Shown here piece by piece: positions 8,782 through 54,043 of a DNA stretch of 64,000 nucleotides (its first letter is position 1; every line of letters begins with the position of its first letter). The notes under the pieces were generated by a model. The model had not been told where the DNA came from. It made no database searches and was given only the letters and a program-made list of their open reading frames with translations. The DNA is from Methylacidiphilum kamchatkense Kam1 (GTDB lineage Bacteria > Verrucomicrobiota > Verrucomicrobiia > Methylacidiphilales > Methylacidiphilaceae), in the NCBI RefSeq assembly GCF_007475525.1, contig NZ_CP037899.1:1302001-1366000 (forward strand), in the 5' to 3' direction. Made by a program: the position numbers and the translations under genes.

Positions 8782-9897
8782 ATGATTTTCTCTCCGTTTG
8801 TTTCCAACCTAAAAAACAAAAGGCTTCCCAAGGATTACGAAGATTGGGAAAAAAATTTTCCAGAACTGTTCTTTTTAGAAGCAAAGCAACCGAAAGTTGA
8901 AATCTATTTACAATCGATCCAATTTTTATACCCTCAAGAATCGATTGTATCCTTAACAACAGAATCGGCCCGTAGAATAGATAAAATTGTCAGAGTAGAA
9001 ACCTCACATAGGACATTCCTTTTAAAACAATCCAGGCCATGGATTGATTGTTGTCCGTCCAGTCGAGCGCCTATGGGACGAATTCTCAAAGAAGCAGAGT
9101 TTTATTCGCTTTGCTCCAAAGATTCCATACTGAGAAGCTATGTACCCTCTCTGCTTTATGTAGACAAAACAAACTATTTGCTCATCTTATCCGAGCTCGG
9201 GAAAAAGGATTACTCAGCAATCTATGAAAAAGAGCCCTTCTCTATCGACGAACTAACTTCTCTCCTCGATTTTCTATCTTATCTGCACTCCACCTTTTAC
9301 CAAAAGAAAATGATTGTGAAGTTCGAGAATCAAGCGATGCGTAAGTATCACTGGAGGAATCTTTTTGTCAGCCCCATGAAACAAAAAAAATCGCTTTCGG
9401 ATTACAAAAAAAATGAGAGCATCAATCGGCTGAAACGAAAGTTTCTTGCAGACTGGAAATTTTACTCTGCGATGAAACAGGCTGCGTATCACTACTTAGA
9501 CCAAGGTCCAACACTGATTCATGGAAATTTTTTACCATTTAGCTGGATCCGAACAGGAACCGGTGTTGGGATATCCGATTTTGAATCGATGATTTGCGGA
9601 AGACCAGAAATCGACCTGGGCCTACTTTTATCCCACCTTCTTCTAGCTGGATTAGTGGAGCATTTTTTTTATGCTTTAAGCTATTACAGGTTGCCGGAGA
9701 GCTTTGAGCTAACTTTGGCATTTAAAATCGCTGGAGCTGAAATCTTTCGAAGATGCATAGGACCTGACGCTTTGGGATGCCTTACACCGCAAACAAAAGA
9801 AAACCTACTTTCTACAAGCTATATGTTACTAACCGAAGAAAAAGAGGTGCTTTTTCAATCGATTCGGAAGATGCTTAACCGGCAATTGACTTTTTAG
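8782..9897 (+). CDS. Kinase-fold phosphotransferase, MtnK/APH-like, with altered catalytic motif
   Basis: A 371-residue protein resembling the methylthioribose kinase and aminoglycoside phosphotransferase group. An N-lobe segment IVRVETSHRTFLLKQSRPW carries the ATP-binding lysine, followed by an acidic E (ILKEAEFY). The catalytic loop reads LIHGNFLPFSWI where family members have HGDLH, so the catalytic Asp is Asn, and the metal-binding motif reads ISDFESMICGRPEIDLG. The Asp-to-Asn change suggests either a non-catalytic kinase fold or a mechanistic variant. The start ATG at 8782 lies 8-12 bases after a GGAATAGGAA stretch. It is a single gene, not near methionine-salvage genes. Confidence 0.65.
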   Translation: MIFSPFVSNLKNKRLPKDYEDWEKNFPELFFLEAKQPKVEIYLQSIQFLYPQESIVSLTTESARRIDKIVRVETSHRTFLLKQSRPWIDCCPSSRAPMGRILKEAEFYSLCSKDSILRSYVPSLLYVDKTNYLLILSELGKKDYSAIYEKEPFSIDELTSLLDFLSYLHSTFYQKKMIVKFENQAMRKYHWRNLFVSPMKQKKSLSDYKKNESINRLKRKFLADWKFYSAMKQAAYHYLDQGPTLIHGNFLPFSWIRTGTGVGISDFESMICGRPEIDLGLLLSHLLLAGLVEHFFYALSYYRLPESFELTLAFKIAGAEIFRRCIGPDALGCLTPQTKENLLSTSYMLLTEEKEVLFQSIRKMLNRQLTF

Positions 9898-10202
9898 CTA
9901 GTCTGCACCCTCTCCAATTAACCGAAAAAAAAACAGCTTGTTTGAATAGAAAGACCATACAAGAAACACTACCGGCTCTTTCTATCATCCTCCCTTCTCC
10001 ATAAAAGGCTATTCATAGCCACTATGTGTTTGTTATAAGCTTTTGCTTCTTGAATTGCAGATAGACACCAACTGCTACAGGAAGCGGCGTGGTTGACTAC
10101 AAGACAGTTCTTTGTTTTCTCTTTTCCTCTTCTACGAATCCTTAGCTTTCGGGTCTGCAGAGAGTAAACCCAAAGGAGGAGGAGGAGAAAATAGAAAAAT
10201 TT
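9898..10202. other. Convergent intergenic region, 305 bp
   Basis: No reading frame, RNA gene or clear terminator hairpin was recognised between the kinase-like gene and the SixA-like gene, which converge here. Confidence 0.4.
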
Positions 10203-10685
10203 TTAAAATTTACGTAGTTGACTCTGACGCAACATGAATCTCAATTCCCAGACACCTAGCCGAAGCTGTTCAGATCGAATGGCAGCGACTCCTCCTTTAT
10301 CAAACGGAAAGGCCTGAGGTCTACTGGCACCAATAAAATCGGATAGAAACTCAGCAAGACTTGGCATATGACCAACAAGTAAAAGAGAGGATTGGCTATC
10401 GTACTTTTTAATCACTTCCAGTAGTTCAGAGGCCGAATGCCCATTCTCCAGTTCAGGAATAATCACCACTTCGTTCTCAAATTTCAATGTCTGGGCTATC
10501 ATCTTTGCCGTTTGCAAGGCTCGGTTTAAAGGGCTACTGAAAATTACATCAGGTTTTATCCCAAGCTTCTTAAATCCTTTTCCCACAATCTTTGCTTCTT
10601 CTTTACCTTCAGGAACCAAATTTCTCTGAGCATCCGTATCCGCTTTTGGTTCGGCTGTTGCATGACGAATCAAATAAAGATTCAT
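10203..10685 (-). CDS. sixA: SixA-like phosphohistidine phosphatase (histidine phosphatase superfamily)
   Basis: About 160 residues. The N-terminal LYLIRHATAEP holds the phospho-accepting His of the RHG/RHA signature; FSSPLNRALQTAKMI carries the second Arg, and LLLVGHMPSLAEFL the second His. Size and motifs match SixA, which dephosphorylates phosphohistidine on HPt or phosphotransferase-system proteins. The ATG at 10685 is preferred over a GTG nine bases upstream because a GGGGGTG Shine-Dalgarno-like stretch then sits at the correct distance. It overlaps a possible small upstream frame by ATGA. Confidence 0.85.
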   Translation of the reverse strand: MNLYLIRHATAEPKADTDAQRNLVPEGKEEAKIVGKGFKKLGIKPDVIFSSPLNRALQTAKMIAQTLKFENEVVIIPELENGHSASELLEVIKKYDSQSSLLLVGHMPSLAEFLSDFIGASRPQAFPFDKGGVAAIRSEQLRLGVWELRFMLRQSQLRKF

Positions 10686-10912
10686 AAAGGACACCCCCTT
10701 GTTGATTCTTTTCTTTTTACATCCTTTTCCCCACTTAGGTCAATGATCAGTTCCTCTGAAGAAAACGACGAAGCAGATAAACCATAGAGTTTTTTCAGTA
10801 GCTTAAGAGTTGGCGTATAAAAAACTAAGAACTCATTCAGAAAGCTTTTTACTTCGAGTTTTCTTTTTAGAATGCAAAGAACCATATTAAAGACGAACTT
10901 TTTATTCAACAA
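10682..10912 (-). CDS. Questionable small ORF upstream of sixA, 76 aa
   Basis: A 76-residue frame with a TTG start whose stop overlaps the sixA start as ATGA, the arrangement seen in translationally coupled pairs. The translation is basic and mildly hydrophobic (FLNEFLVFYTPTLKLLKKLYGL) and matches no family I know. The TTG start has no ribosome binding site, and the region is the divergent promoter of the gene at 10928, so it may be non-coding. Confidence 0.25.
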   Translation of the reverse strand: MLNKKFVFNMVLCILKRKLEVKSFLNEFLVFYTPTLKLLKKLYGLSASSFSSEELIIDLSGEKDVKRKESTRGCPL

Positions 10913-10927
10913 AAGGAGAAGAAAAAA

Positions 10928-11215
10928 ATGGCCTCTACATTTGATACCCTAAAACTCAGTAAGCGGCTAGAAGAAGCTGGTTTGACTCAAAAACAAGCTG
11001 AGATTATCTCTGAAGCGCTTGTTGAAGGATTTCTTGAAGAAAATAAAAAAACCGCCTCTTTTAACGCAGAACAGCGGCTGGAAATGCAACTGAGTCTTCG
11101 GATAGACAAACTAGAATCAAAAATTGAAAACCTGGATAAACGCCTCTCTCAATATTTTGGATTACTCATGGGGAGCATCGTTCTTTTAGGCATCATTTTA
11201 AAAATCCATCTCTGA
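10928..11215 (+). CDS. DUF1640-like coiled-coil membrane protein
   Basis: A 95-residue protein with an acidic helical N-terminus (SKRLEEAGLTQKQAEIISEALVE), a coiled coil (LRIDKLESKIENLDKRLSQYF, about 58-78) and one C-terminal hydrophobic segment (GLLMGSIVLLGIIL). This is the layout of DUF1640 proteins, relatives of the mitochondrial CCDC90/MCUR1 group, anchored by their C-terminus in the inner membrane. A strong Shine-Dalgarno AAAGGAG at 10912-10918 supports the ATG at 10928. Its bacterial function is unknown. Confidence 0.75.
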   Translation: MASTFDTLKLSKRLEEAGLTQKQAEIISEALVEGFLEENKKTASFNAEQRLEMQLSLRIDKLESKIENLDKRLSQYFGLLMGSIVLLGIILKIHL

Positions 11216-11704
11216 AAAAAATCTTCAAAGAAATGTATTTTTAGCAGTTCAGTCCTCTCTAAAGATCAGTTGATAAATTCCTATCACAAAGATACAACTG
11301 TTTATCTTTTCTAAAAAGAATCATAGTGGCCACAGGACACTTGAGCAGCAGTGGAACAAAGTATTAGAGAAAAGTCGTCAGATTGCCAAAGGGAACGGTA
11401 ATGGAAGAGAAAGGAAAGGCATTAGGTTTTTATGAGACATAAAAAACTATCTGACAAAGTTTTAACAGATCACCTAGGCAAACAAGTGGATTGACAGTAC
11501 ACTATGGCACCAGATTTTTAGATAGCAGACGAAATGCCAGCAATAAGATTTCAGACTAGTAGGCATAAGACTGAATTTTATGTCTAGAAAAACAAGGATG
11601 ACATACTTCCTATTCCATGTCAGTACGCTTTGATTCTAATCAAGAAACGAATAGAGAGCAACAAGCATGGAGTTTCAGAACACAGCAAAAGAAACAGAAT
11701 CTAA
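11216..11704. other. Convergent intergenic region, 489 bp
   Basis: No supported gene. Frames here are short and broken by many stops in all directions, and no tRNA, array or obvious terminator stem was found. Confidence 0.45.
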
Positions 11705-39393: not shown

Positions 39394-41845
39394 TTATTTG
39401 TTTATATTCATTTCTAGTTCGGAAGCCCTTAAAAGTGTGGAGTATATAGAATTAGGATTAACAGAGATACTGTCTATACCTTCTTTTATAAGAAATTCTA
39501 AAAAATCCTTATAATTACTTGGTGCTTCTCCACATATCCCAATTTTTCTTTTGTTCTTTTTAGCGGTTTGAATCATGGAAGCGATTAATCTTTTCACCGC
39601 TTCATTCCGCTCGTCATAAAGGGAAGCAATAATTTCAGAATCTCTATCCACCCCCAGCACCAACTGAGTTAGATCATTGGAACCAATGGAAAAGCCATCA
39701 AAAATTTCACAGAATTCTTCGGCTAAAATGACATTGCTTGGTATTTCACACATCATAAAGACCTCCAAGCCGTTTTCCCCTCTCCGCAGTCCGTTTTTTT
39801 CTAACTCCTCTATGACTCTTTTTCCTTCTGCTACGGTCCTAACCATTGGAATCATCACCTTAATGTTCAAAAGACCAAAGGTTTCCCTGGCCTTCTTAAG
39901 GGCTAGACATTCCAAAGCAAATCCTTGTTGATAGCGAGGGTGGTAATAACGAGAAGCTCCTCGAAAACCCAGCATTGGGTTTCGCTCAATGGGTTCAAAG
40001 TCTGTGCCCCCTAACAAGTTGGAATATTCATTAGATTTGAAATCACTCAGCCTAACAATGACATCCTTTGGGAAAAAGGCCGCAGCAATCAGTCCGATGC
40101 CTTCGGCTAGTTTATCAACAAAGTAGTCAGTCTTCTTTGGATAATTCTCTGTCAGTTGGCGAATTTTCATCTTTTCAGGCCCTTCCTTGAGCCGATCAAA
40201 GTGCACCAAGGCCATAGGATGAACTTTGACGTAATTAGTAAGGATAAATTCTTGGCGAGCTAGCCCAACGCCATCATTGGGAAGAAACGAAAAATCGAAG
40301 GCTTTATGTGGATTGCCCACATTCATCATAATCTTTGTTCTTGGACGAGGAATTTCCGTAAGATTGATCTTTTCGATCGTGTATGGAATATTGCCTTCGT
40401 AGACTTTCCCAACTTCCCCTTCAGCGCAGCTTACCGTTACAAGCATTCCGTTTTGAAGCACCTGTGTGGCATTTTCGGTTCCAACTACTGCCGGTACCCC
40501 AAGTTCCCTACTAACAATAGCGGCATGACAGGTTCTCCCCCTCTGTCTGTTACAATTGCTGCCGCTTTTTTTATTACTGGTTCCCAATCTGGATCTGTTT
40601 TTTCAATAACCAGCACCTCGCCTGGCTGAAATTGATCCATTTGTTGGAGATCTTGGATAATTCGAACTTTCCCTTGAGCGACTTTTTCCCCAACCGCTTT
40701 CCCTTCAACAAGAACTTTGCTCTTGGTTTTTAACTGATAGACTTGAATAGATTTTTTATTTTGTCCTCGGTGTATTGTTTCCGGTCTTGCTTGAAGAATA
40801 AAAAGATCTCCACTGAGACCATCTTTTGCCCATTCTATATCCATGGGCGTACTACGCTCGTTCTTGCGTGTATAGTGTTCTTCTATTATACATGTCCACT
40901 TACTAAGAGTTAATATTTCAGAGTCAGATAAGACATACTTGTTTCTATCTTCAATGGGGACAGGGACATTTTTAACATAAGCCCCTTCATTAATCTTTCC
41001 CCATCGATGTCGTAGACAAGTTTGATGTCCTTACTCCCCAATTTCTTCTGAATAATAGGCTTATAGCCTTTCATTAAGGTGGACTTAAAGACGTAGTATT
41101 CATCTGGATTGACTACCCCTTGGACAATATTTTCGCCTAACCCATAAGAAGCATTAATTAGGACGACTTTTTTAAATCCTGATTCAGGATCAAGAGTAAA
41201 CATGACGCCAGAACAAGCTAGATCGGATCGCACCATTCTTTGTATACCCACGGACATGGAGATATGAACGTGTTCATATCCCATCTCCTTTCTATACATT
41301 ATGGCTCGATCCGTATAGAGGGATGCGTAGCAGAGTTTGATTGCATTTAACAGATTTGCATTCCCTTTAATGTTAAGGTAAGTGTCTTGTTGACCAGCAA
41401 AACTAGCAAGCGGAAGATCTTCAACATTAGCACTGGATCTGACAGCCACATCAACATCTTCTATCCCCGAATCATTAGATAAAAATTTATAGGCACTAAT
41501 TATTGCCTTTTTATATTTATAAGGGAATTTAGAATTAATGATAATATTTCTAATGTATTTACTAGCTTCTTTAACGCTATTTATGTCAGAATAATTGACA
41601 GCCTGTAATCTCTGATCAATTTCATCTCTAATATTATTAAAGCTTATAAATTGTTCATAAGCCCATGATGTTATAGCAAAACCGTTTGGTATCTTTATTC
41701 CAAATGGTGTTAATTCTTTCATCATCTCTCCAAGAGAAGCATTTTTACCCCCTACTTCAGCAATATTTTCCAATGTTATTTGATTATACCATAAAATATA
41801 ATCTATGCTATTATATACAGCTTTATGATTCATATTATACCCCAT
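39394..41845 (-). CDS. ppsA: Phosphoenolpyruvate synthase (two frameshifts)
   Basis: Three overlapping frames together encode a full PEP synthase (about 810 residues): ATP-grasp N-domain (AEVGGKNASLGEMMKEL, VAVRSSANVEDLPLASFAGQQDT, VVNPDEYYVF), the phosphohistidine domain (ERSTPMDIEWAKDG, then [24 protein letters not shown] with the catalytic His) and the C-terminal barrel (GFRGASRY, FSIGSNDLTQLVLGVDRDS, GICGEAPSN). The breaks lie near 40983-40998 (an A/T-run base missing) and at the C5 run 40537-40541; one added base at each restores the frame. It makes PEP from pyruvate and ATP. It follows the pmoB-downstream gene by 12 bases, in the pmo operon. Either ATG at 41845 or 41833 may start it. 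Confidence 0.9.
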
Positions 41846-41857
41846 TGCTTCATTGTT

Positions 41858-42478
41858 TCACTTACATGTATTTTTTTGCACCATCCGGAATATCATTCCG
41901 ATAATAACACATATTAAGATGGTTATTATCGTTATTATCATAATTTTGTATTTTATCCATGATAATACATTTTCCCTATCTACTATAAATGGAAATACAA
42001 AATTAACATTTTTATCTTCTAATAAGATCCCATATTGGTTAAGTTTTGTTAGTATTCCTTGATCACAGAATATATTTATTTTTGATATATATGATCCTGG
42101 CTTAAGATAAACACGTTTCCATATTACCCCGTTTACAGGAACTTCAGACCATGAATATAGATATTTTTCAGGTTCATTTTTATAGGTAATATATATGTTT
42201 ATCTTATGATCATTTAAAATATTGCCGATTCCAACTATATCGTATACCAGTGAAACCATACCACTGTGTGGGATTTTGTTGCAATAAGCATTCATTAAAC
42301 ATCCACGATTATATGGTATTGGATATTCTGGATAGATCGTAAAATGAGCCGCAAAGTAATTATTCACCACAAATCCACACTTATCTATCGTTTCACCATT
42401 CGATATAGTATATTTACATATAACAAGATACATAATTATGATTACAGATATATATCTATCTATATAATTATGTTTCAT
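41858..42478 (-). CDS. Membrane-anchored protein downstream of pmoB, PmoD-like by position
   Basis: 206 residues with an N-terminal signal or anchor (SVIIIMYLVICKYTI), about 130 beta-rich residues and a C-terminal membrane helix (YKIMIITIITILICVIIGMIF). This topology and its place after pmoB resemble PmoD, a copper-binding periplasmic partner of particulate methane monooxygenase. Cysteines and Met occur in RGCLMNAYCNKIPHSGM and IFCDQG, but I cannot confirm PmoD copper motifs. The gene is markedly AT-rich with many ATA codons, unlike pmoCAB. It lies 11 bases after the pmoB stop. Confidence 0.6.
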   Translation of the reverse strand: MKHNYIDRYISVIIIMYLVICKYTISNGETIDKCGFVVNNYFAAHFTIYPEYPIPYNRGCLMNAYCNKIPHSGMVSLVYDIVGIGNILNDHKINIYITYKNEPEKYLYSWSEVPVNGVIWKRVYLKPGSYISKINIFCDQGILTKLNQYGILLEDKNVNFVFPFIVDRENVLSWIKYKIMIITIITILICVIIGMIFRMVQKNTCK

Positions 42479-42489
42479 TGAAATATGTA

Positions 42490-43731
42490 TTATTGAAAGA
42501 CTGGAATGACAAACTGATCTGCTATAGCGATGATATTTCTATTCCCTGCTGCATCTCCAAAAAAGATGAGCCCACCAAACCTACTGGAGGATTCTTTATA
42601 AATAGTAGAGAGTCTTTCTACTTCCCAAGCTGCTCCTTGAGCTTTTACATGTAGTAGTTTTGTTTCACCAGGCAGAATGGGTTCATTAGGAGTAATTTGC
42701 AACTCTCCGCCATTGACTTCTGGAGAATCAGCTGGCCACTGATTGTCAGGAGCAGCCGGATTCAAAAAGGCAACATTCGCTGTTTGAAACCGTCGCAAAT
42801 ATACTTTTTCATTTCCTTTATTGGTTACAGTTAAATCAAAATCGAGGCTTCGTTGCTGAACATAATAGGTTGCTTTACTGACTTTTGCTTCAACAAAGGT
42901 TGGTCCCTGTGGCAAAGGGTCAATTCTTACAAAGGTTTTTTGGAGGGGTATAACAATTGGAAACTGCTTGGAGGTAAGAAAAGCCCCACCAAATACGAGT
43001 ACGATCACAATGGCCAAGAATAAAAATCCAAACCTTTGATCTTGCTTGGTAACCAATTCGTCCTCTTTTTCCAAGTAGGCAAGCCCTAGTCTTGGAGCTG
43101 TTGGTTTAAGAATAAGCCAATAATAGAGCCAACCAATTCCTAACAATACCCAAAGGATGGACCAACCAAAGGCCCGACTTAATCCATAGTTTTCTAGATT
43201 AATGGTTTGTCCGGTCAAGGTTTGGACTGTATTTGTAAATGGAGCAGAGGAAGGATCAATCGTTACTTTGATAGAAGGCCCTACAATGGGTCCAATATCT
43301 TTAATATTCATTGTAACACCCACAGGCCAAGTACCCGGTCTGCGTGCGGTCAACACTTCTTTAAAGTCATAAGTGTCTCCAAGCTTCACGATCATGCTTG
43401 AAAACACAGGCTGGCCATTAACGATAGTTTCCTTGCGGGCCAGCCTTGGACCGGGTTCAAAGAAATTGATATAGCCAATACCAGAAAAACCAAGCTCATG
43501 CGGCCATATAGGCAAAATCATGACTTTTCCAGTGACTACAAGATCATCGCCTACTTTCAAATGATTGGAAGAGAAGCGAACATCGTAAAATTGGGCGGTC
43601 CGCATCCTCAGAATTGCTTCCTGAGCCCTTTCCCCTATTCCAGAGCCATAAAGGTGAGAAGAAGCAATAATTGCGATTATTACAGTACATGCTAATATTA
43701 GCGTGATGATGGAGTGATTTTTTATTTTCAT
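42490..43731 (-). CDS. pmoB: Particulate monooxygenase subunit B (PmoB, group 3-like)
   Basis: 413 residues, periplasmic with two central membrane helices (about 185-205 and 228-248). AQEAILRMRTAQFYDV, DFKEVLTARRPGTWPVGVTMNI, TLTGQTINLENYGLS and DLTVTNKGNEKVYLRRFQTANVAFLNP are PmoB signatures. Of the Methylococcus copper ligands, His33 is Ile32 here, His48 is Gln47, and the HVH pair is Pro136 and Gly138, so the PmoB copper site is absent, as reported for verrucomicrobial enzymes. It has a signal-anchor N-terminus and SD AAAGGGG before the ATG. The gene is third in the pmoCAB order. Confidence 0.96.
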   Translation of the reverse strand: MKIKNHSIITLILACTVIIAIIASSHLYGSGIGERAQEAILRMRTAQFYDVRFSSNHLKVGDDLVVTGKVMILPIWPHELGFSGIGYINFFEPGPRLARKETIVNGQPVFSSMIVKLGDTYDFKEVLTARRPGTWPVGVTMNIKDIGPIVGPSIKVTIDPSSAPFTNTVQTLTGQTINLENYGLSRAFGWSILWVLLGIGWLYYWLILKPTAPRLGLAYLEKEDELVTKQDQRFGFLFLAIVIVLVFGGAFLTSKQFPIVIPLQKTFVRIDPLPQGPTFVEAKVSKATYYVQQRSLDFDLTVTNKGNEKVYLRRFQTANVAFLNPAAPDNQWPADSPEVNGGELQITPNEPILPGETKLLHVKAQGAAWEVERLSTIYKESSSRFGGLIFFGDAAGNRNIIAIADQFVIPVFQ

Positions 43732-43775: not shown

Positions 43776-44525
43776 TTAGATCTTCTTTACCCAACGGTTT
43801 CTGGTGCACTGATCTCCAATCCACCAAAATATTGCATATATAAAGATACCAACAACACCACTGAAGAATATGGCCGGGCCTAAGGCTCCCCCTTCAAAAG
43901 TACGAAGCGTACCACTTTCAATCATTCTTAAATACTCTGGTATAGCAGAGCGGACATAGGAAAATCCGATATAATCGGCTATACTCAAGGTTTGGCCTAA
44001 GGCTTCTATGGGTTGATGAAATGGAGCAATCATGACCCAGTTCGCTGGGTAAAAGGTTAAAGCAAAAGCATAGGCACCGAAAAGATAAGTCAAGAGGAGC
44101 TTTCTAGATAAAAGTAAAACACAATCCGCAGCAATAGCACATGGAATGACAGTCTCTGGAAACAATTCATTCATTGGATAACTGAACCATCCCCACCAAT
44201 TGACATATCTTTCAAACCACTGCCAGAGATTGATTCCTACCGCACATAAAGTCATTCCTACGGGTAGTCTAGCTTTAATCCAACAAGCTGCTTGTACGCT
44301 GACTAACATCAACATATAGGATATGACTCCTAAAATTGGAAAATAACGACGATCTTTCCAATCTATCCAGAAGCTCCAGTCTCCTTCTAATAATGACTGA
44401 GAAGCGAATGTCCCTACTGTCACAGTCATTCCTATGATGACCCATGCTACAAATTGAATTCTTTTCCCTACTTCTAAACCTTCTTTTTGAAGTTCTGGGG
44501 AAGTCTTTATCGTCTGTGTTTGCAT
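43776..44525 (-). CDS. pmoA: Particulate monooxygenase subunit A (PmoA)
   Basis: 249 residues, the usual PmoA length, with about seven membrane helices. WSFWIDWKDRRYFPILGVISYM, the GMTLCAVGINLWQWFERYVNWWGWFSYPMNELFPETVIP region and SYVRSAIPEYLRMIESGTLRTFEGG are the family hallmarks used for pmoA typing. The window alone cannot place it among the pmoA1/2/3 groups, but its neighbours match the pmoCAB3 type. SD AAAAGGAG precedes ATG. A long hairpin in the mRNA lies just upstream. Confidence 0.97.
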   Translation of the reverse strand: MQTQTIKTSPELQKEGLEVGKRIQFVAWVIIGMTVTVGTFASQSLLEGDWSFWIDWKDRRYFPILGVISYMLMLVSVQAACWIKARLPVGMTLCAVGINLWQWFERYVNWWGWFSYPMNELFPETVIPCAIAADCVLLLSRKLLLTYLFGAYAFALTFYPANWVMIAPFHQPIEALGQTLSIADYIGFSYVRSAIPEYLRMIESGTLRTFEGGALGPAIFFSGVVGIFIYAIFWWIGDQCTRNRWVKKI

Positions 44526-44621: not shown

Positions 44622-45485
44622 TTACATTCCAGGGAGTGTATGCACTGGATTAGTGGCTTCCTCAGGATTTTCCATAGCCTCTGCAGCTGACATGCATTTT
44701 TCACCAAAATAGGTTGCTTTTAGAACTGCAGCTATCCTTGGAAACATGTCAAATCCATTGCCTAAGAACCAAACAGCAGCCCATGCAAAAGGCACAAAGG
44801 TCCAGTGCAACGGAGCGGCAAACCATTCTTCTAAAATCCAAGCACTATGCCCCCATTCGTTTTCTCCAATTAATGGAATAAACATTATCGGCCAAGCTAC
44901 TTCCATAACTAAGGGCAGCAACCATTTTTTGCCCATTACCGGAAGTCTTGTTCTGGTTAACATCAATCCAGCTACTCCAAAGTTAATAAAAATAGGCCAA
45001 CTAAGATAAAAATTGAAGATATGACTAGGAGTAAACTCTGTGTCCCTAATCATGGATGAATGCCATACTCCATCCTGTTCAACAAAGAAGACCGCCCATA
45101 CTAAACACCACGCATACACCCCAAGGGTGATTAGCCAGTTCGAGTACCAGCGTTTTAATTCCTCTCCTGGACTTAGCTGTTCCAAATGACGATCTCTATA
45201 GACAAACCAGATCCAACCCCATGTCAGTCCCCAAATTATAACATTCATTATTGTTATACCCCAGAAAAGATTCATCCAATAAGTCTGGAAGTCTTGTGAG
45301 GTATAATCAATTCCTTTCGTGATCGCAAATGCTCTCTGATAGAGCATGCAAGCTCCATAGAAGAGCGATATCAATATACAATATAGATAGAATCTCCAGT
45401 TATTAAAATATTCCTTTCTAGGCACCAGCTCAGCAACGGATGATACATCCATTGCTCCAACTGTTGCTACTCGTTCATTAGCCAT
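44622..45485 (-). CDS. pmoC: Particulate monooxygenase subunit C (PmoC)
   Basis: 287 residues with about six membrane helices. The metal site region FFVEQDGVWHSSMIRDTEFTPSHIFNFYLSWPIF has the conserved ligands Asp138, His142 and His155 of the PmoC copper centre, spaced D-x3-H-x12-H, so the proposed catalytic site is intact. NNWRFYLYCILISLFYGACMLYQR is the first helix. It is first in the operon with a strong ribosome site (AAAGGAGG, 7 bases before the ATG) and a sigma-54 promoter about 60 bases upstream. Confidence 0.97.
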   Translation of the reverse strand: MANERVATVGAMDVSSVAELVPRKEYFNNWRFYLYCILISLFYGACMLYQRAFAITKGIDYTSQDFQTYWMNLFWGITIMNVIIWGLTWGWIWFVYRDRHLEQLSPGEELKRWYSNWLITLGVYAWCLVWAVFFVEQDGVWHSSMIRDTEFTPSHIFNFYLSWPIFINFGVAGLMLTRTRLPVMGKKWLLPLVMEVAWPIMFIPLIGENEWGHSAWILEEWFAAPLHWTFVPFAWAAVWFLGNGFDMFPRIAAVLKATYFGEKCMSAAEAMENPEEATNPVHTLPGM

Positions 45486-45547
45486 ACACTATCCTCCTTT
45501 TTTTGTTTTTCTGGTTTTTGCGTATGAACGCTTCTGCATAATTTTCG

Positions 45548-45564
45548 AGCATAAGGTATGCCAA
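45548..45564 (-). promoter_or_regulatory. Sigma-54 promoter of pmoCAB
   Basis: On the minus strand TTGGCATACCTTATGCT: GG at -24 and GC at -12 with exactly 11 bases between the key G residues, matching the consensus YTGGCACG-N4-TTGCW in nearly all invariant positions. The start of transcription would be about 45536, giving a 5' leader of about 50 bases before pmoC. Confidence 0.8.
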
Positions 45565-45671
45565 TTTTAACATTTTTTTTGCCTTTCGGATTAGCCATCT
45601 ACTTTTCTTTGAAAAATAAAGGATGAATATTTTCTATTACTGTTGCATATAGCTACATTTCTCATTGCTAA

Positions 45672-45686
45672 ATGCATCATCTGCAT
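45672..45686. promoter_or_regulatory. Possible activator-binding site between the divergent sigma-54 promoters
   Basis: ATGCATCATCTGCAT: two 5-base arms ATGCA/TGCAT around TCATC, overlapping a direct repeat TGCATCAT. It sits about 50 bases upstream of the rightward -24 element and about 110 bases from the pmoC promoter, the expected distance for an enhancer site of a sigma-54 activator. Weak evidence on its own. Confidence 0.35.
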
Positions 45687-45732
45687 CATTTCATTTCTAC
45701 TGGTCTTTTTCTTTCATCCTGTATTTTTCAGA

Positions 45733-45748
45733 TGGCACATTTTTTGCT
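45733..45748 (+). promoter_or_regulatory. Sigma-54 promoter of the VOC-GMC-GlcDF operon
   Basis: TGGCACATTTTTTGCT: an exact match to TGGCAC-N5-TTGCW. Transcription would start near 45759, about 19 bases before the ATG at 45778, whose ribosome site AGGAGG lies at the right distance. It faces away from the pmoC sigma-54 promoter. Confidence 0.88.
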
Positions 45749-45777
45749 CTAAATCTGACTAAAAAGAAGGAGGATTA

Positions 45778-46167
45778 ATGGTTCATCGTTTTTTACATGT
45801 CAGATATCGTGTTTCGAATTTGGAAAAAGCACTCTTTTATTTTGTCAATTTTCTCGGTCTTAAAGAAGTCGGACGGATTACTTCTCCAAGAGGCTCCAAA
45901 TTGGTTTTTTTACAAGCTCCAGAAAATGGCACCCTGCTTGAACTCTGTGAGTATCCTGATAGTGGGAAAGTCGTCGTACCTCCAGACCTAACGCATCTGG
46001 CTTTTTCTGTTAATGATCTTGAAGAGGCTCGCATCAAATGCAGCAAAATGGGATGGCCATTTACTGATGAAATCCAGAAAGCTGAAAACGGACAGTATTT
46101 TACATTCATTGATGCCCCGGATGGCTATGAAATTGAACTGATCCAAGAAGAAAAGAAAAAAGAATGA
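45778..46167 (+). CDS. VOC-superfamily (glyoxalase-I-like) protein
   Basis: 129 residues with the paired beta-alpha-beta modules of the VOC superfamily: RFLHVRYRVSNLEKALFYFVNFLGLKEVGR, LVFLQAPENGTLLELCEY and THLAFSVNDLEEARIKCSKMGWPF ending DAPDGYEIELIQEE. Candidate metal ligands are the His of FLHVRY, the E of LLELCEY, the H of THLAF and the E of EIELI, as in glyoxalase I. Glyoxalase-type chemistry on methylglyoxal, the expected product of acetol oxidation, would fit the operon. First gene of the rightward sigma-54 unit. Confidence 0.85.
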   Translation: MVHRFLHVRYRVSNLEKALFYFVNFLGLKEVGRITSPRGSKLVFLQAPENGTLLELCEYPDSGKVVVPPDLTHLAFSVNDLEEARIKCSKMGWPFTDEIQKAENGQYFTFIDAPDGYEIELIQEEKKKE

Positions 46168-46199: not shown

Positions 46200-46775
46200 A
46201 TGAAAATTTCTAGAAGAAAATTCTTCTTTTATTTTTTTGGTACCCTCTTTTTTGTCGATAAAAAACACCAATTACTGAGCTCAAGTTGTTGTTCCGTAAA
46301 TCATTCATTTTTTGGAACCTCCAAGCTAATTGAAAATAATGTTCAGAATAACTTTCTTAGTGATCTTCAGCAAAAAAACCTTCATAAGTTTATAGCCATT
46401 GTTGTGCCTCATCAAGGTGAGGTCTATGAAAAGGCAAGGACCATCTCATATAATCACCTCCTTGAAAGTTGGTCTACCAACAAGAATTCCAATAAACAAC
46501 ACAAGCTAGAAGCCTACTTAGATTTGCTGCAGAAATACTCTCAAGAATTAACTAAAAAAGACTTCTACCTTCTTTCGTTGCCTGAAGGAACTAACATAGT
46601 CAAAAGAACAGAAGACCAAAAGATATTTCAGGACCTTCTCAATCAAATTCTCTCTACCTTCTATAATGATAAAGAGGTATGGACAGCTATTGGTTATCCT
46701 GGCCCCTCAATGAATGAGAATGGGAAGTATCTTGGAGGGTATGTAAACAAAGGATTCGATCAACTCGATTGGTAG
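46200..46775 (+). CDS. Gluconate-2-dehydrogenase subunit-3-like protein
   Basis: 191 residues beginning MKISRRKFFFYFFGTLFF, a twin-arginine-type signal (SRRKFF). The C-terminal part (DFYLLSLPEGTNIVKRTEDQKIFQDLLNQILSTFYND, WTAIGYPGPSMNENGKYLGGYVNKGFDQLDW) matches the small subunit family of FAD-linked membrane gluconate dehydrogenases. It would chaperone export of, or bind, the GMC subunit encoded 39 bases downstream. A cytochrome subunit is missing from this locus. Confidence 0.85.
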   Translation: MKISRRKFFFYFFGTLFFVDKKHQLLSSSCCSVNHSFFGTSKLIENNVQNNFLSDLQQKNLHKFIAIVVPHQGEVYEKARTISYNHLLESWSTNKNSNKQHKLEAYLDLLQKYSQELTKKDFYLLSLPEGTNIVKRTEDQKIFQDLLNQILSTFYNDKEVWTAIGYPGPSMNENGKYLGGYVNKGFDQLDW

Positions 46776-46814: not shown

Positions 46815-48395
46815 ATGGCCACGACACTTTCTAATGAAACGGTTGATGTATGCGTCATAGGGACAGGAGCCGGAGGAGGAAATCTAATCCGGGAGCTTTG
46901 TCTTCAAGGAGTTAAAGTTGTAGCGCTAGAGGCAGGTCCACGGCTCGTTCCTGAAAAGGATTTTGAAAACGATGAATGGGCCATGTTCTTAAAGACAGCA
47001 TGGCTTGATCCAAGAGAAACGCAAGGAGAAGATATCACCGGTCTTGCAGCTTGGACATGTAAAACAGTTGGAGGAACGACTCTTCACTGGGCAGGAGCGG
47101 CCTTACGCATTCAACCATGGGAATTTAAAGTAAAGTCTCTATATGGAGAAATTCCGAAAGCTAATCTAGCTGACTGGCCAATCAGCTATGAAGATCTCTT
47201 ACCCTACTATGAAAAAGCTGAAAAGGCTCTTGGGGTTTCTGGCCGAGTCATGCCTTTTCAACCAGGAAATACCAATTTTCTGGTCATGAAAAGAGGGGCT
47301 GAAAAACTTGGGATCCAGGCAACACCAGGCTTTATGGCTATCAATAGTATTCCTTTTGATGGACGGCCTCCCTGTGATCAATGTGGTTTTTGTTTTCAAG
47401 GATGTACGATTAAAGCAAAATGGAATGTTCTCTATGAAGCCATTCCCAAAGCAGAGCAAACAGGTAATTTAGATTTGAGGCCACAATGCCAAGCAATTCG
47501 TATTGAAACAGATTCTAGGAAAAAAGCAACAAGCGTCATTTATGCAGACAGCCAAGGAAAACTTCATCAACTCAAAGCAAAAGTTATCTGTGTTGCCTGC
47601 AATAGTATTGAAACGGCCAGGCTATTATTAAATTCAGAATCTTCTAAATTTCCTCATGGATTAGCTAATGGCAGTGGAATGGTTGGGAAAAATTATATGC
47701 GCCACTTAACTGCCTCTTCTTATGCCCTATTTCCAAAACCCGTACATGCCTATAAGGGCATAACTATGATGGGACTTATAGATAATTTTGCCAAAAACGA
47801 GCCAAAGAGAGGCTTTGTGGGTGGATTTCATCTTGAAACAATTATGCTCGGACCGGCCTTTTTATCGATTTTTCTTAGACCTGGCCCCAATACCTCCACT
47901 TCACAAGCAAGAGCCTTATGGGGCGAGCCACTGAAGAACTTGATGGAGAACTACACCCATATTGCTGGCATGTGGATTGTGGGAGAAGATCTTCCTCAAC
48001 TGACCAATGGAGTTAGTTTACACAAAGAAAAAAAAGATCGATTCGGAATGCCGATTCCTGTTATTACCTTTAATGATCATCCTAATGATAAACGGATGCG
48101 CGAATATGCCTGGAAAAGGGCAAGAGAAATTTATGAGGCTGCAGGGGCCATAGAAGTTTACGATACTCCCCCTTATCCAGCAACTCATAACTTAGGAACC
48201 TGCCGGATGGGAAATAATCCGGAAACCTCTGTGACAAATTCTTATGGTCAATGCCATGAAGTAAAAAATCTTTTCATATCTGACGGGAGCCTATTTCCTA
48301 CAGGAGCTTGTGAAAACCCCACGTTGACGATATCCGCATTGGCTATTCGACAAGCCGAATACATTATAAGGGAAATGAAAGCATTGAGGCTTTAA
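46815..48395 (+). CDS. GMC-family FAD oxidoreductase (alcohol/polyol dehydrogenase large subunit)
   Basis: 526 residues. FAD-binding VDVCVIGTGAGGGNLIRELCLQGVKVVALEAGPRL and the GMC pattern KTVGGTTLHWAGAALR and YPATHNLGTCRMG.(P)..SV(T). The conserved catalytic His is in THNLGTCRMG and a second His/Asn near the C-terminus (CENPTLTISALAIRQAEYI). A cysteine motif PPCDQCGFCFQGC (about 186-197, C-x2-C-x2-C-x3-C) may bind an Fe-S cluster. The pair with subunit 3 suggests periplasmic oxidation of a small alcohol; in this context acetol or 2-propanol. Confidence 0.88.
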   Translation: MATTLSNETVDVCVIGTGAGGGNLIRELCLQGVKVVALEAGPRLVPEKDFENDEWAMFLKTAWLDPRETQGEDITGLAAWTCKTVGGTTLHWAGAALRIQPWEFKVKSLYGEIPKANLADWPISYEDLLPYYEKAEKALGVSGRVMPFQPGNTNFLVMKRGAEKLGIQATPGFMAINSIPFDGRPPCDQCGFCFQGCTIKAKWNVLYEAIPKAEQTGNLDLRPQCQAIRIETDSRKKATSVIYADSQGKLHQLKAKVICVACNSIETARLLLNSESSKFPHGLANGSGMVGKNYMRHLTASSYALFPKPVHAYKGITMMGLIDNFAKNEPKRGFVGGFHLETIMLGPAFLSIFLRPGPNTSTSQARALWGEPLKNLMENYTHIAGMWIVGEDLPQLTNGVSLHKEKKDRFGMPIPVITFNDHPNDKRMREYAWKRAREIYEAAGAIEVYDTPPYPATHNLGTCRMGNNPETSVTNSYGQCHEVKNLFISDGSLFPTGACENPTLTISALAIRQAEYIIREMKALRL

Positions 48396-48426: not shown

Positions 48427-49818
48427 ATGACTAGTCTAAACGTTCCCAACGAAGTTCTTAGGAGCTTGATCGATCATTTTCCTGAAAGCTCCCTTTTAAT
48501 TTCCAAAGAAGATCTTATCCCTTATAGCTTCGATGCTACAGCCACTTTTTATCATGCTCCGCTTGCTGTCTTATTTCCTTCTTCTATTGAGGATATTCTC
48601 TGGGTTCTGAAATGGGCCAAATCAAACCATGCTTGCATCCTTCCTCGAGGATCTGGAACAAGCTTAAGTGGGGCCGCTGTGCCTCAAAAAAACTCCATTG
48701 TTCTTTCTATGACCAAATGGAATAAAATTTTAGAAACAGATCCTGATAACTTGACCCTTTTGGTCGAACCTGGAATTACCACTCAAGTTGTACAAGAGGA
48801 AGCCGCTAAGTATTCTCTTTTTTACCCGCCCGATCCCGGCTCCTATAAAATTTCGACCATAGGTGGCAATGTGGGACATAATTCTGGGGGGATCCGAGGA
48901 TTAAAATATGGCGTAACAAGGAATTACGTCTTAGGAATGGAGGTGGTATTACCAAATGGCCAGGTGGTATGGTTAGGGAACAAATGCGTAAAAGATTCTG
49001 CAGGCTATTCCTTAAAGGATCTTTTTATAGGCTCTGAAGGAACGCTTGGCATTGTTACTAAAGTATTGCTTCGGCTTATTCCAAAGCCACAAGAAAGGCA
49101 GGTGATACTAGCTTCTTTTCCTACCCTTGAAGCAGCATCTGAAGCTACATCAGCAATCATAAAAGCAGCCTTAATCCCTAGTGCTCTAGAGTTTCTTGAT
49201 CAAAAGACCATTGAGTGCATCGAAGCCTATTCGCCAGCAGGTTTTCCCAAAGAAAGCCAAGCCGTATTGCTCATTGAATCGGATGGCCACCCTCAAGCAG
49301 TCCGTGATGAAATCACTCGGATCAATCAAGTTCTTAAACAATACGGTCCATTAGAAATCAAAATCGCTGAGGATCCTAAACAACAAGAGCAATTGTGGAG
49401 TGCAAGAAAAGTTGCCTTCTCAGCTCTCGCAAGAAAAGCACCTACGGTTCTTTTAGAAGATGTTACTGTTCCAAGAAGTTCGCTTGTCCAAATGATTCGT
49501 AAAATTCAGCAAATCTCAAAAACCTATGCCGTCGAAATTGCGGTCTATGCACATATGGGAGATGGAAACCTGCACCCAGTTTTTTTAGGGGATGAAAGCA
49601 ATAAGGATTTAATGGAGAAAGTCTTTAGGGCAATGAAAGAAATTTTCCTTTATGCCATAAAACTGGGAGGAACCATTACTGGAGAACATGGAGTGGGACT
49701 AGCTAAAAAAGAATTTCTAGCTTATCAATATAAAAGCGAAGAATTTCAATTGCTTAAAAGCATAAAAAAAATCCTAGATCCTGAGAATCTTTTAAATCCT
49801 GGGAAAATCTTTGACTGA
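48427..49818 (+). CDS. glcD: GlcD-like FAD-linked 2-hydroxyacid dehydrogenase
   Basis: 463 residues of the VAO-type flavoprotein family. The FAD domain has LPRGSGTSLSGAAVPQKNSIVLSMTKW, VEPGITTQVVQEEAAKYSLFYPPDPGSYKISTIGGNVGHNSGGIRGLKYG and SLKDLFIGSEGTLGIVTKVLLRLIPKP; the C-terminal part has VYAHMGDGNLHP and GGTITGEHGVGLAKKEF. It oxidises glycolate or D-lactate, passing electrons to the Fe-S subunit that follows. In this operon D-lactate from a glyoxalase step is a natural substrate; glycolate is the alternative. It overlaps the next gene by 8 bases. Confidence 0.92.
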   Translation: MTSLNVPNEVLRSLIDHFPESSLLISKEDLIPYSFDATATFYHAPLAVLFPSSIEDILWVLKWAKSNHACILPRGSGTSLSGAAVPQKNSIVLSMTKWNKILETDPDNLTLLVEPGITTQVVQEEAAKYSLFYPPDPGSYKISTIGGNVGHNSGGIRGLKYGVTRNYVLGMEVVLPNGQVVWLGNKCVKDSAGYSLKDLFIGSEGTLGIVTKVLLRLIPKPQERQVILASFPTLEAASEATSAIIKAALIPSALEFLDQKTIECIEAYSPAGFPKESQAVLLIESDGHPQAVRDEITRINQVLKQYGPLEIKIAEDPKQQEQLWSARKVAFSALARKAPTVLLEDVTVPRSSLVQMIRKIQQISKTYAVEIAVYAHMGDGNLHPVFLGDESNKDLMEKVFRAMKEIFLYAIKLGGTITGEHGVGLAKKEFLAYQYKSEEFQLLKSIKKILDPENLLNPGKIFD

Positions 49819-51193
49819 TTCAATAATGAGCCCATTAAACTCCAAAAACTCACTTCAATTAATGGATCCTGCAGTTATTCAAAAATGCATTCATTGTGGA
49901 ATGTGCCTTCCTAGTTGTCCTACCTACCAAGAAACCAAAATAGAACGCAATAGTCCTAGGGGTAGGATTTCCCTCATGAGAGCTATTGCTGAAAAAAGAA
50001 TGGATCTGACCGCTTCTTTTGCTCATGAGCTCTATTTTTGCCTCGGTTGCCTAGCTTGCCAAACAGCCTGTCCAGTCGGCGTGGATTACAAGACCTTATT
50101 TGAAGCTTCCAGGCAAGACATTGAAAAGTCGAAAATCTTAAATAACCCCTTACGGCTGCTCGCAAGGACTTTCCTTATTAAATATCTCTTTCTTTCATCC
50201 TGGAGATTAAGAACCTTTGGCAGACTGCTACGAATTTATCAAAGAATGGGACTGGATAGGTTTTTTAAAAGCCTTCCATTTCTTCCAGCCAAGCTAAAAG
50301 ATATGCTTGGCCAGCTTCCTTCTATTGCCCCTCACTTTTCCTATGAAATCATTTCCACAAGAGAAATTCCAATCAATACACCTGCTCGATGGAAAGTAGG
50401 CCTTTTGACTGGTTGCGTCCAAGACCTTGTTTTCTCTAAAATTAACAGAGATACCGCTGATGTTCTCCTATATAACGGATGTGAAGTTATATGTCCTCCT
50501 GAGCAAGGTTGTTGTGGTTCTCTCCATGCACACAATGGTGAGTTGGAAACAGCAGAACGGCTAGCTAAAAAACTCCTAGCCGCTTTTCCCATAGAAGAAT
50601 TGGATGCAATTATAACGAATTCTGCTGGTTGTGGATCTCATCTCAAACATTTCTCAGATCTCTTTCCCCCGGGAACTTTCTGGAGACAAAAGGCTGAAGT
50701 ATGGGATAAAAAAGTCTATGATATCCATGAATGGCTAATAAAGATAGGATTTTCTCCTCCTCAGGCATTTCCCTGTACCAGCCAATCTCACACAGTAATT
50801 ACTTATCATGATGCCTGCCATCTATGCCATGGGCAAAAGATTAAAAATGAGCCTAGAGCCATACTCCGTTCTCTGCCATGTATTCAATTTATAGAACTTG
50901 AGGAGGCCGATCACTGTTGCGGGAGTGCTGGGATCTATAACATCTTACAACCAGAAATGGCTCATAAGCTTTTGAATAAAAAAGTAGAAAAAATAAAGAA
51001 AACAAACGCCTCAGTAGTTTGCACAGCCAATCCTGGCTGCCTACTCTTTATAGAAAAGGGATTGAAAAAACATCATTTAAACATCCAAACGATCCATCCT
51101 ATCTCCCTTCTTGCACAATACTATAGGATGAAAGAGAGAGATGGAGGATCCATTGAAAAGAAAGAAGCCAATCTGGCTGGACTCATTCATTAA
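49811..51193 (+). CDS. glcF: GlcF-like Fe-S subunit of 2-hydroxyacid dehydrogenase
   Basis: 460 residues. Two [4Fe-4S] ferredoxin motifs, CIHCGMCLPSCPTY (near residue 26) and CLGCLACQTACPVGVDY (near 77), precede two CCG domains (CCGSLHAHNGE and DACHLCHGQK, CCGSAGIYN). It partners the GlcD-like protein and delivers electrons toward the quinone pool. No GlcE subunit is in the window. The start could be TTG 49811 or ATG 49826; the 8-base overlap with glcD supports coupled translation either way. Confidence 0.92.
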   Translation: MTDSIMSPLNSKNSLQLMDPAVIQKCIHCGMCLPSCPTYQETKIERNSPRGRISLMRAIAEKRMDLTASFAHELYFCLGCLACQTACPVGVDYKTLFEASRQDIEKSKILNNPLRLLARTFLIKYLFLSSWRLRTFGRLLRIYQRMGLDRFFKSLPFLPAKLKDMLGQLPSIAPHFSYEIISTREIPINTPARWKVGLLTGCVQDLVFSKINRDTADVLLYNGCEVICPPEQGCCGSLHAHNGELETAERLAKKLLAAFPIEELDAIITNSAGCGSHLKHFSDLFPPGTFWRQKAEVWDKKVYDIHEWLIKIGFSPPQAFPCTSQSHTVITYHDACHLCHGQKIKNEPRAILRSLPCIQFIELEEADHCCGSAGIYNILQPEMAHKLLNKKVEKIKKTNASVVCTANPGCLLFIEKGLKKHHLNIQTIHPISLLAQYYRMKERDGGSIEKKEANLAGLIH

Positions 51194-51529: not shown

Positions 51530-53506
51530 TTATGAATGGAACTTTTTAAGGTTTCTATAGAGAGTACTCCGGTGTACCCCTAATAGTTTTGCAGCCCTAC
51601 TTGCATTTCCTCCAGTTTTTTCCAATGCAGAAAAAAATAGCTCTTTTTTATATTTTTTGAAATGGAGAGGAGTTGCCTCACCAGAGGAGTTCGTCCCGTT
51701 AAGAACCTGTTTGTCTAGCAATTGTCCTTCTTCATTTTCCTTTCTAGCATTGTGTAGAATGGAAAGAAGGTCTGCCGGCTTAATCACTTTGCTTTGAAGG
51801 TTTTTAGCAATAAGCCTAAAAGCCACATTTTTCAACTCCCTTACATTTCCAGGCCAGGAATAATTGTAAAGGATCGGTAAAATCTCATCCCAATCAATCG
51901 AGGGATAAAATTTCAATTTCGCAGAGATCTGTTCAATAAAATAAATGAAGAGCAATTCTATATCCTTATCTCTTTCTCGTAATGGAGGAAGATGAATTGG
52001 AAAAATGTTTAACCTATAAAAAAGATCTTGTCTAAATGCTCCCTGCGTGCTTAACAGCTTGAGATCCTTATTGGTTGCTGCAATAACCCTAACATCAACG
52101 GGAATTGGACTTTTTGCTCCTATGGGAAAAATTTCAAACTCTTCAAGGACTCTAAGCAGAGTCCCTTGAATTTCGAGTGGAAGTTCACCAATTTCATCTA
52201 AGAAAATAGAACCATTATTAGCTAAAAGAAATTTCCCTTTTCTCCCTTCTTTCGAAGAACCAGTAAAAGTTCCACCTTCAAATCCAAAGAGTTCACTTAC
52301 CACTAGTTCCTTCGGAATGGCAGCACAATTGATTGCTAAAAAGGTTTCTTTTGCTCTTCGGCTATTTTGATGGATAAACTTAGCAAATATTTCTTTTCCG
52401 GTACCCGTTTCACCTAACAGGAGAACAGGCAAATCATTTTGAGCGGCAATTTTTGCTTCTTCCATTGCAGCTACAAAAGCGGGGGATTTGCCAATAATCA
52501 AATCAGGCGAATGTGATACAGTCGTTTCAGAGGAAGATTTTTGAGATTTAAATAAAAAACAAGAAAAATTCAACGATTCTGAACCTGCTGGAGCCGAAAC
52601 ATAACTATTAGAAAGTTCTATGATATAACCAATAATTCTGTTCTCACGGACAATGGGTTCGATCAAAGCGGGAACGACCATCTTTCCCAGAACAATATCT
52701 GATTCAAAAACCTGAGGCTGATCAATAGAAATTCTAGGTCTATTCCTTATAGAGACAAAATCCATTTTTGTGGCCTGAAACTCTGCCAGAATTTCTTTTG
52801 GACAATGTAAAATCGTTCCTAAAGAATCAATCAATAAAAAGGGAAAAGTACTATAAAAGCCCTTCTTTTCTACAAATTTGTTATAAAGATAAACCCTATC
52901 CGTATAAAGAATGGCGGTCAGTTTGGTTTCTATAAGAGAGCTATTGGTTATGGCTATACTGATTGGGATAGGCTTGTGTGCGATGTCCCCAATCATCGTT
53001 AAAGCCATAAATAGATCTTTGGATTCAGGTTTGTGAATGATTGCAGAGGTGCACCAAATGTCATGAAGAGAAGCGCAATAATGTTCTGGACCTATAACTG
53101 AAATAGGCTTTTTTTCTTCAATTGCTGCCCCAATGGCTGAACATCCACAATATTTTTCACTCCAATTAGCTCCAATCACTAGCTTATAAAAATTCGCTTT
53201 TTCTAATAATCTTTCTGGTCCATCGACAAAGGTGACCACTCCTTCAGAATTGACAATGGCTATGAGACAATCAAAATCAAGCGCTTGCATTCGCAGCAAG
53301 GGAAATAAAGGCTGGAGAAAAGAAAAAGAATCTAACTCTAAGTTAAGTTTCTCTTCTTTTGAAGAAAGAAGCACTGGAGAGTGTTTTTCTCTATCAATAC
53401 CATATTTTTTGCATCTTTCCCAACTTTTCAAAATTTCATCTCTAACCCTAGGGTGAGTTGCATTACCCAAGGTAAATCTCTCCCATTCCTGAATAATGTC
53501 CGTCAT
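51530..53506 (-). CDS. Sigma-54-dependent activator, AcoR-like (GAF-AAA+-Fis)
   Basis: 658 residues. The N-terminal third is the AcoR-type sensor: RVRDEILKSWERCKKYGID, and IGAAIEEKKPISVIGPEHYCASLHDIWCTSAIIHKP, the GAF region with conserved Cys and His. The AAA+ domain has LLLGETGTGKEIFAKFIHQ, the sigma-54 loop GTFTGSS, GSIFLDEIGELPLEIQGTLLRVLEE and RQDLFYRLNIFPIHLPPLRERDKDI. A Fis-type HTH ends it (GNASRAAKLLGVHRSTLYRNLKKFH). Lacking a receiver domain, it senses a small ligand directly. It sits at the end of the unit with two sigma-54 promoters, so it is the natural candidate regulator. Confidence 0.93.
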   Translation of the reverse strand: MTDIIQEWERFTLGNATHPRVRDEILKSWERCKKYGIDREKHSPVLLSSKEEKLNLELDSFSFLQPLFPLLRMQALDFDCLIAIVNSEGVVTFVDGPERLLEKANFYKLVIGANWSEKYCGCSAIGAAIEEKKPISVIGPEHYCASLHDIWCTSAIIHKPESKDLFMALTMIGDIAHKPIPISIAITNSSLIETKLTAILYTDRVYLYNKFVEKKGFYSTFPFLLIDSLGTILHCPKEILAEFQATKMDFVSIRNRPRISIDQPQVFESDIVLGKMVVPALIEPIVRENRIIGYIIELSNSYVSAPAGSESLNFSCFLFKSQKSSSETTVSHSPDLIIGKSPAFVAAMEEAKIAAQNDLPVLLLGETGTGKEIFAKFIHQNSRRAKETFLAINCAAIPKELVVSELFGFEGGTFTGSSKEGRKGKFLLANNGSIFLDEIGELPLEIQGTLLRVLEEFEIFPIGAKSPIPVDVRVIAATNKDLKLLSTQGAFRQDLFYRLNIFPIHLPPLRERDKDIELLFIYFIEQISAKLKFYPSIDWDEILPILYNYSWPGNVRELKNVAFRLIAKNLQSKVIKPADLLSILHNARKENEEGQLLDKQVLNGTNSSGEATPLHFKKYKKELFFSALEKTGGNASRAAKLLGVHRSTLYRNLKKFHS

Positions 53507-54043
53507 ATGTCGGTATAAAAACCAATATTTTTATTTTATGGTTCTAATAAATAATTTAATAATACATAGTCAAATTTTATTTTTTCCAATAAACAAATAT
53601 TTTTAATTGATTTTTATAAAGATCAATGCCCTTCCATTGATTTAGCAAAACATGACATTGAGTATTCTCTGCACTCTCTCTCATCGTTCTTCAAGATCTC
53701 TACAGCTAAACAACAAAATCATTTTTGTGACTTTTGATATCTTCCTCTTGCTCATTTTGTTCCAGTAGTGCCTAAATCTGTTAAAATTAAAAGATAATAA
53801 CATCCATATTAGCACAATGAACAAAAAATTAGCTAAAAATCGAGCAATAGAGACCAGTCCAAACTCTTTTCAACAAGAGCCATTTTATCTTATAGACCTT
53901 CTTATAATTTTAAAGACTAAAAGAAACTACAATAGCCCCAAATTGGGGGGAGGGCATGATCTCTTTTAGTAGACGCAGTTTCTCTAAGCAGGATGATTGA
54001 GCTTTTTTAGGTTATCTTCACCAAGCCAAAGATTCATTTAGGA
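53507..54043. other. Intergenic region, 537 bp
   Basis: AT-rich spacer between the start of the regulator gene (leftward) and tRNA-Ala (leftward). A 13-bp palindrome CCCCAAATTGGGG lies near 53936-53950 but has no T-run. No gene was recognised. Confidence 0.45.

Follow-up and report, generated by a model that had tools for sequence, protein, structure and literature searches.

What switches verrucomicrobial methanotrophs between methane and C3 substrates? The induction of the C3 genes has been published, and neither of the papers on the C3 cluster (PMC8630023, PMC12235487) mentions a sigma-54 promoter or names a regulator gene for it. The locus studied here lies in a stretch of 64,000 bases (hereafter the window; positions 1302001-1366000) of the Methylacidiphilum kamchatkense Kam1 chromosome, which comprises 2,202,032 bases. 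The genes of interest in the window correspond to the known Methylacidiphilum C3/acetone cluster, IT6_09370-09425 and Mfumv2_1600-1612, which is induced by 2-propanol and acetone (PMC8630023, PMC12235487). In strain IT6, pmoCAB3 was induced 14- to 40-fold on C3 substrates, and the enzyme was assigned to acetone oxidation (Awala et al. 2021, PMC8630023). A 2025 study on strain SolV found the C3 cluster induced 20- to 330-fold (PMC12235487).

The initial annotation of this DNA, made from the sequence alone, proposed two back-to-back sigma-54 promoters, one for pmoCAB and the other for the divergent oxidoreductase operon. Both lie in the 292 bp that separate pmoC3 from gloA. Judging from the sequence comparisons described below, this assignment is very probably correct. 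The features discussed are collected in Table 1.

Table 1. Features of the promoter gap, the two divergent operons and the linked activator gene (positions count from the first base of the window)
Feature	Position	Strand	Particulars
Predicted sigma-54 -24/-12 promoter, pmoCAB3	45548..45564	minus	TTGGCATACCTTATGCT; predicted start ~45537, leader 52 nt
Predicted sigma-54 -24/-12 promoter, gloA-gmcBA-glcDF	45733..45748	plus	TGGCACATTTTTTGCT; predicted start ~45759, leader 19 nt
Putative enhancer site A	45641..45657	.	imperfect inverted repeat TGTTGC-N5-GCTACA (GTTGCATAATGCATC in G024 and G036)
Putative enhancer sites B and C	45665..45689	.	TTGCTAAATGCATCATCTGCATCAT, repeated GCATCA half-sites
pmoC3, first gene of left operon	44622..45485	minus	Pfam AmoC, E 1.8e-62
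pmoA3	43776..44525	minus	Pfam AMO, E 5.1e-67
pmoB3	42490..43731	minus	Pfam Monooxygenase_B, E 1.2e-108
pmoD	41858..42478	minus	no Pfam match; named by position as in published clusters; 11 bp after pmoB3; ortholog in 5/5 genomes
gloA, glyoxalase I-like, first gene of right operon	45778..46167	plus	Pfam Glyoxalase, E 3.1e-16
gmcB, gluconate 2-dehydrogenase subunit 3-like small subunit	46200..46775	plus	Pfam Gluconate_2-dh3, E 2.8e-4, just under cut-off
gmcA, GMC oxidoreductase	46815..48395	plus	Pfam GMC_oxred_C/N
glcD-like FAD subunit, lactate/glycolate dehydrogenase	48427..49818	plus	Pfam FAD-oxidase_C; TIGR00387
glcF-like Fe-S subunit	49811..51193	plus	Pfam CCG, Fer4
AcoR-like sigma-54 activator (bEBP), 658 residues	51530..53506	minus	Pfam Sigma54_activat, HTH_8

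Within the C3 cluster, the gene for phosphoenolpyruvate synthase (39394-41845, minus) is spread over three reading frames with at least two frameshifts in the window, and forms one open frame of ~790-840 codons in the four relatives compared here (G014, G020, G024 and G036). It is either a decayed gene or a product of assembly errors.

The divergent promoter pair

Both promoter motifs were found exactly where the initial annotation had placed them, 168 bp apart and facing outward, with GG at -24 and GC at -12 in the fixed spacing of sigma-54 promoters (YTGGCACGrNNNTTGCW). The plus site had been described as a perfect consensus match, and it fits TGGCACN5TTGCW without mismatch, while the minus site deviates from this strict consensus at two positions (TGGCAT, ATGC). 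The starts given in Table 1 were derived by the -12 rule; the initial annotation had them at 45536 and 45759.

As sites with up to two mismatches to the consensus are frequent (35 in the window versus 27.9 expected), the minus site alone is unconvincing. The pattern TGGCAYN5WTGCW has exactly two matches in the 64 kb, both strands taken together, and these are the promoter pair. The statement that a divergent pair is very unlikely to arise by chance was borne out by simulation, since none of 40,000 simulated 292-bp gaps contained an outward-facing pair, the means for single sites being 0.001-0.004 per gap.

We then extended the pattern searches to the whole genome, using spacing variants of the two promoter halves as the control. 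TTGGCAYN5WTGCT occurs 11 times with the 5-bp spacer, whereas the 20 other spacers tested average 1.75 occurrences each; the corresponding figures in the relative G036 are 13 and 0.95. A reversed-pattern control, which gave 0 matches, was set aside on account of the CG dinucleotides present in the reversed pattern. The initial annotation had pointed out that an abundance of similarly scoring sites across the genome would speak against the pair; with ~11 comparable sites in 2.2 Mb, this is not the case. The stricter pattern TGGCACN5TTGCTC has a single genome-wide occurrence, the site at 45733. One of the matches to the sigma-54 pattern sits 31 bp before nifB, a classic sigma-54 target that serves as a positive control. 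Two more lie, respectively, before an Fe-S assembly gene in the same part of the chromosome and next to an ammonium-transporter gene. The genome carries rpoN in a single copy, whose product scores above the cut-off of TIGR02395 and possesses the RpoN box. No comparable -24/-12 site was found upstream of the other pmo operons examined, which fits the different, oxygen-linked control that the literature describes for them. In G014, the 17-mer TGGCACATTTTTTGCTC recurs in identical form within a long open frame (G014:C1:2265149-2265165, L162), and perfect matches can thus fall inside genes.

For the orthologous gap, we aligned the sequences of five Methylacidiphilum genomes, i.e., that of the window and the four relatives, and obtained 319 non-coding columns. 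Both promoters are kept in all five genomes. Their core columns, defined as TTGGCA/TGCTC and TGGCA/TGCTC, are invariant without exception (21/21, versus 34% of the non-coding columns), with a hypergeometric P of 4e-11 that is somewhat flattering, as the final C and the dropping of the sixth -24 base were picked after viewing the alignment. The spacers vary in sequence and are fixed in length, and such fixed ends around a free spacer are the pattern predicted by sigma-54 contact. In G024 it is the minus site that appears as the perfect consensus TGGCACN5TTGCT (TTGGCACGCATTTTGCT), and the plus site carries one change.

These data also bear on the published view of the cluster. In strain IT6, BPROM and CNNpromoter predicted sigma-70-type units, with separate ones for pmoC3, pmoA3 and pmoD (PMC8630023), and it could be argued from the BPROM-based units that ordinary sigma-70 promoters drive the cluster and that the -24/-12 matches are incidental. 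Nevertheless, the prediction score used for IT6 covers RpoD promoters only, and our consensus scan of 45400-45900 gave no sigma-70-type match. The absence of any such pair from the simulated gaps, together with the finding that it is precisely the sigma-54 core bases that are selectively conserved among the five genomes, argues further against this explanation, which we consider very improbable. Thus, sigma-54 control of both operons, as initially proposed, is upheld by the conservation across five genomes, the single rpoN, the enrichment of the 5-bp spacing, the nifB control and a gap devoid of sigma-70 matches, and sigma-54 would be expected to bind both sites.

Mixed control, in which sigma-54 induction is combined with internal sigma-70 promoters (before pmoA3, pmoD and others) that give background or uneven expression, would be compatible with the sigma-54 scheme. 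Internal promoters have been predicted for IT6 (PMC8630023), and pmoC3 and pmoA3 are separated by a 96-bp gap that could house one; however, the genes of the cluster are co-induced and no sigma-70 match was found within the pmoC3-gloA gap. We regard such an additional layer as rather unlikely.

A candidate enhancer and a linked activator

Between the two promoters, the block 45641-45689 stands out in the alignment, with 30 of its 49 columns invariant across the five genomes (hypergeometric P 2e-5). Putative site A is conserved in all five, and the distance from it to the pair of GCATCA half-sites is 31 bp in every case. Four genomes contain a single exact copy of the motif GTTGCATANNGCNNCA, in each case within this gap, and the fifth has it with one mismatch. 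From the centre of site A to the plus GG we measured 85.5 bp in four of the five genomes and 82.5 bp in G036, and the distance to the minus GG drifts between 85.5 and 103.5 bp. In the window, site A is ~86 bp from each -24 GG, which falls within the ~70-150 bp usual for sigma-54 enhancers (PMC3844500). This conserved central block probably represents the layout expected for an enhancer shared by both promoters. An 18-nt inverted repeat (17/18 complementary; TGAAAAATAAAGGATGAA at 45610-45627 and TTCATCCTGTATTTTTCA at 45713-45730) flanks the enhancer-like block. It was equalled in 0/1000 simulated gaps, and it is not kept in the four relatives.

The gene at 51530-53506 encodes a protein that appears to be AcoR-like. 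Its AAA+ domain matches PF00158 (Sigma54_activat) with an E-value of 1.9e-62, and residues 627-656 match the Fis-type helix-turn-helix (HTH) of PF02954 (HTH_8) with an E-value of 9.1e-11. The Walker motif GETGTGKE and the loop GTFTGS (vs GAFTGA) are invariant in the five orthologs, and the same loop is found in a Peribacillus relative. The protein aligns end to end, at 30-35% identity, with its nearest annotated plasmid relatives, which are annotated simply as sigma-54-dependent Fis-family regulators; the gene neighbourhoods of these relatives gave no clue to the ligand. No Pfam sensor domain was found in the putative N-terminal sensor region, and when solved structures were searched with a profile, only the AAA+ and HTH portions gave matches. 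A structure model of the sensor region was discarded (mean pLDDT 46.8).

Upstream of the activator gene we found neither a sigma-54 site nor the enhancer motif, so that there is no sign of sigma-54 self-activation, and the activator is probably made without sigma-54. The same upstream region (53507-53620, minus) contains an AT-rich block (AATAAAATTTGAC...TATTATTAAATTATTTATTA) that is sigma-70-like and conserved in all five genomes.

Is this activator the one that acts on the promoter pair? The sites could be real and yet be driven by another activator encoded elsewhere, for example of the NifA or NtrC type, with the adjacent AcoR-like gene regulating something else, and the genome does hold six other strong sigma-54 activator genes. 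Against this, the adjacent activator stays linked to the cluster: full-length orthologs are present in all five genomes with this pmo cluster, always at most ~10 kb from the promoter gap, whichever the flank (past glcF in three genomes; past the ppsA end, on the opposite side, in G024 and G036). In the sample of genomes taken from the order, no full-length ortholog turned up outside the genus. Moreover, each genome contains the enhancer motif only once, which argues for a local dedicated activator and not a global one, and the published induction tracks C3 substrates. Control by a distant activator therefore appears improbable to us, albeit less so than the sigma-70 explanation. The initial annotation had one enhancer-binding protein acting on both promoters; the central motif cluster, which is shared, conserved and unique in the genome, and the linked AcoR-like activator lend this idea support, and the connection between the two is indirect. 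We suggest that the linked activator pairs with the enhancer-like block and binds within 45641-45689.

The activator was absent beside the GMC-oxidoreductase relatives from other phyla in all of the loci compared (L003-L049), and there is thus no cross-phylum regulatory module. One of these relatives deserves mention. A Chloroflexota MAG contig (L003, JAUQQI010000070.1) encodes at 9722-11413 a GMC oxidoreductase with 69% identity to that of the window, accompanied by a similar small subunit; pmo genes and the activator are absent from the 11.4 kb covered. As this identity far exceeds the 50-55% of the proteobacterial relatives, the sequence suggests either a transfer or a binning error.

A proposed C3 switch and its relation to known systems

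The scheme that we favour, with a probability of roughly 0.84, is that the AcoR-like activator senses a C3 metabolite and activates both promoters through a single enhancer. Sigma-54 RNA polymerase would wait in the closed state at both outward-facing promoters, and the activator would be produced from its own non-sigma-54 promoter. On meeting a C3 compound (presumably 2-propanol, acetone or acetol, the odds for any specific C3 ligand being about even), the activator would bind the TGTTGC/GCATCA half-sites of the central block, loop to either polymerase and open it by ATP hydrolysis. The leftward acetone monooxygenase (pmoCABD) and the rightward acetol-to-pyruvate genes (gloA, gmcBA, glcDF) would then be induced jointly, and both operons would be off on methane. 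Ligand dependence is suggested by the type of the activator and by the published induction data, and co-induction of the two operons is taken from the literature.

If the scheme holds, the switch can be specified exactly, as a pair of start sites, a candidate enhancer of 49 bp and a single activator gene, all conserved across the genus. We lean, with more reserve, towards the broader interpretation that sigma-54 directly controls a pMMO/AMO-family copper membrane monooxygenase through a bidirectional promoter served by a single shared enhancer, that this arrangement gives a methanotroph an on/off C3-ketone switch, and that the linked regulator is a dedicated sensor of acetone, 2-propanol or acetol in a thermoacidophile. 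The activator would accordingly be a candidate for a heat-tolerant sensor of short ketones or alcohols.

The published IT6/SolV accounts of the same cluster differ from ours in that the promoters were predicted there as sigma-70 (PMC8630023). We found no earlier report of a copper membrane monooxygenase operon with a sigma-54 promoter in a literature search of incomplete coverage, and such control is apparently unreported so far. The activator resembles AcoR (acetoin) and BmoR (butane monooxygenase), which combine a sensor region, AAA+ and a Fis HTH in one chain, as the present protein probably does, and act as local activators of a catabolic cluster; the target enzymes differ. Butane monooxygenase is a known case of sigma-54 control with a linked activator, and BmoR is induced by alcohol, i.e., by a downstream metabolite (PMC8784404). 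In Mycolicibacterium chubuense NBB4, the copper membrane monooxygenase operon hmoCAB has an AcoR-like gene as its neighbour (PMC8784404), as in our locus; the regulation is only predicted there and no sigma-54 promoter is reported in the text consulted, whereas here the promoters, the enhancer-like cluster and rpoN were identified, all from sequence.

The closest parallel in control is the MmoR/rpoN system of mmoX (PMC5874634), in which a sigma-54 -24/-12 promoter and a linked activator likewise serve a methane-monooxygenase-type operon. In the mmoX system, however, the enzyme is a soluble di-iron enzyme and MmoR needs the GroEL-like MmoG (PMC5874634), whereas the present locus has a copper membrane monooxygenase, a pair of divergent promoters and an enhancer-like cluster common to both. 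If the scheme proposed here is correct, sigma-54 control would extend from the soluble methane monooxygenase to the copper membrane monooxygenase.
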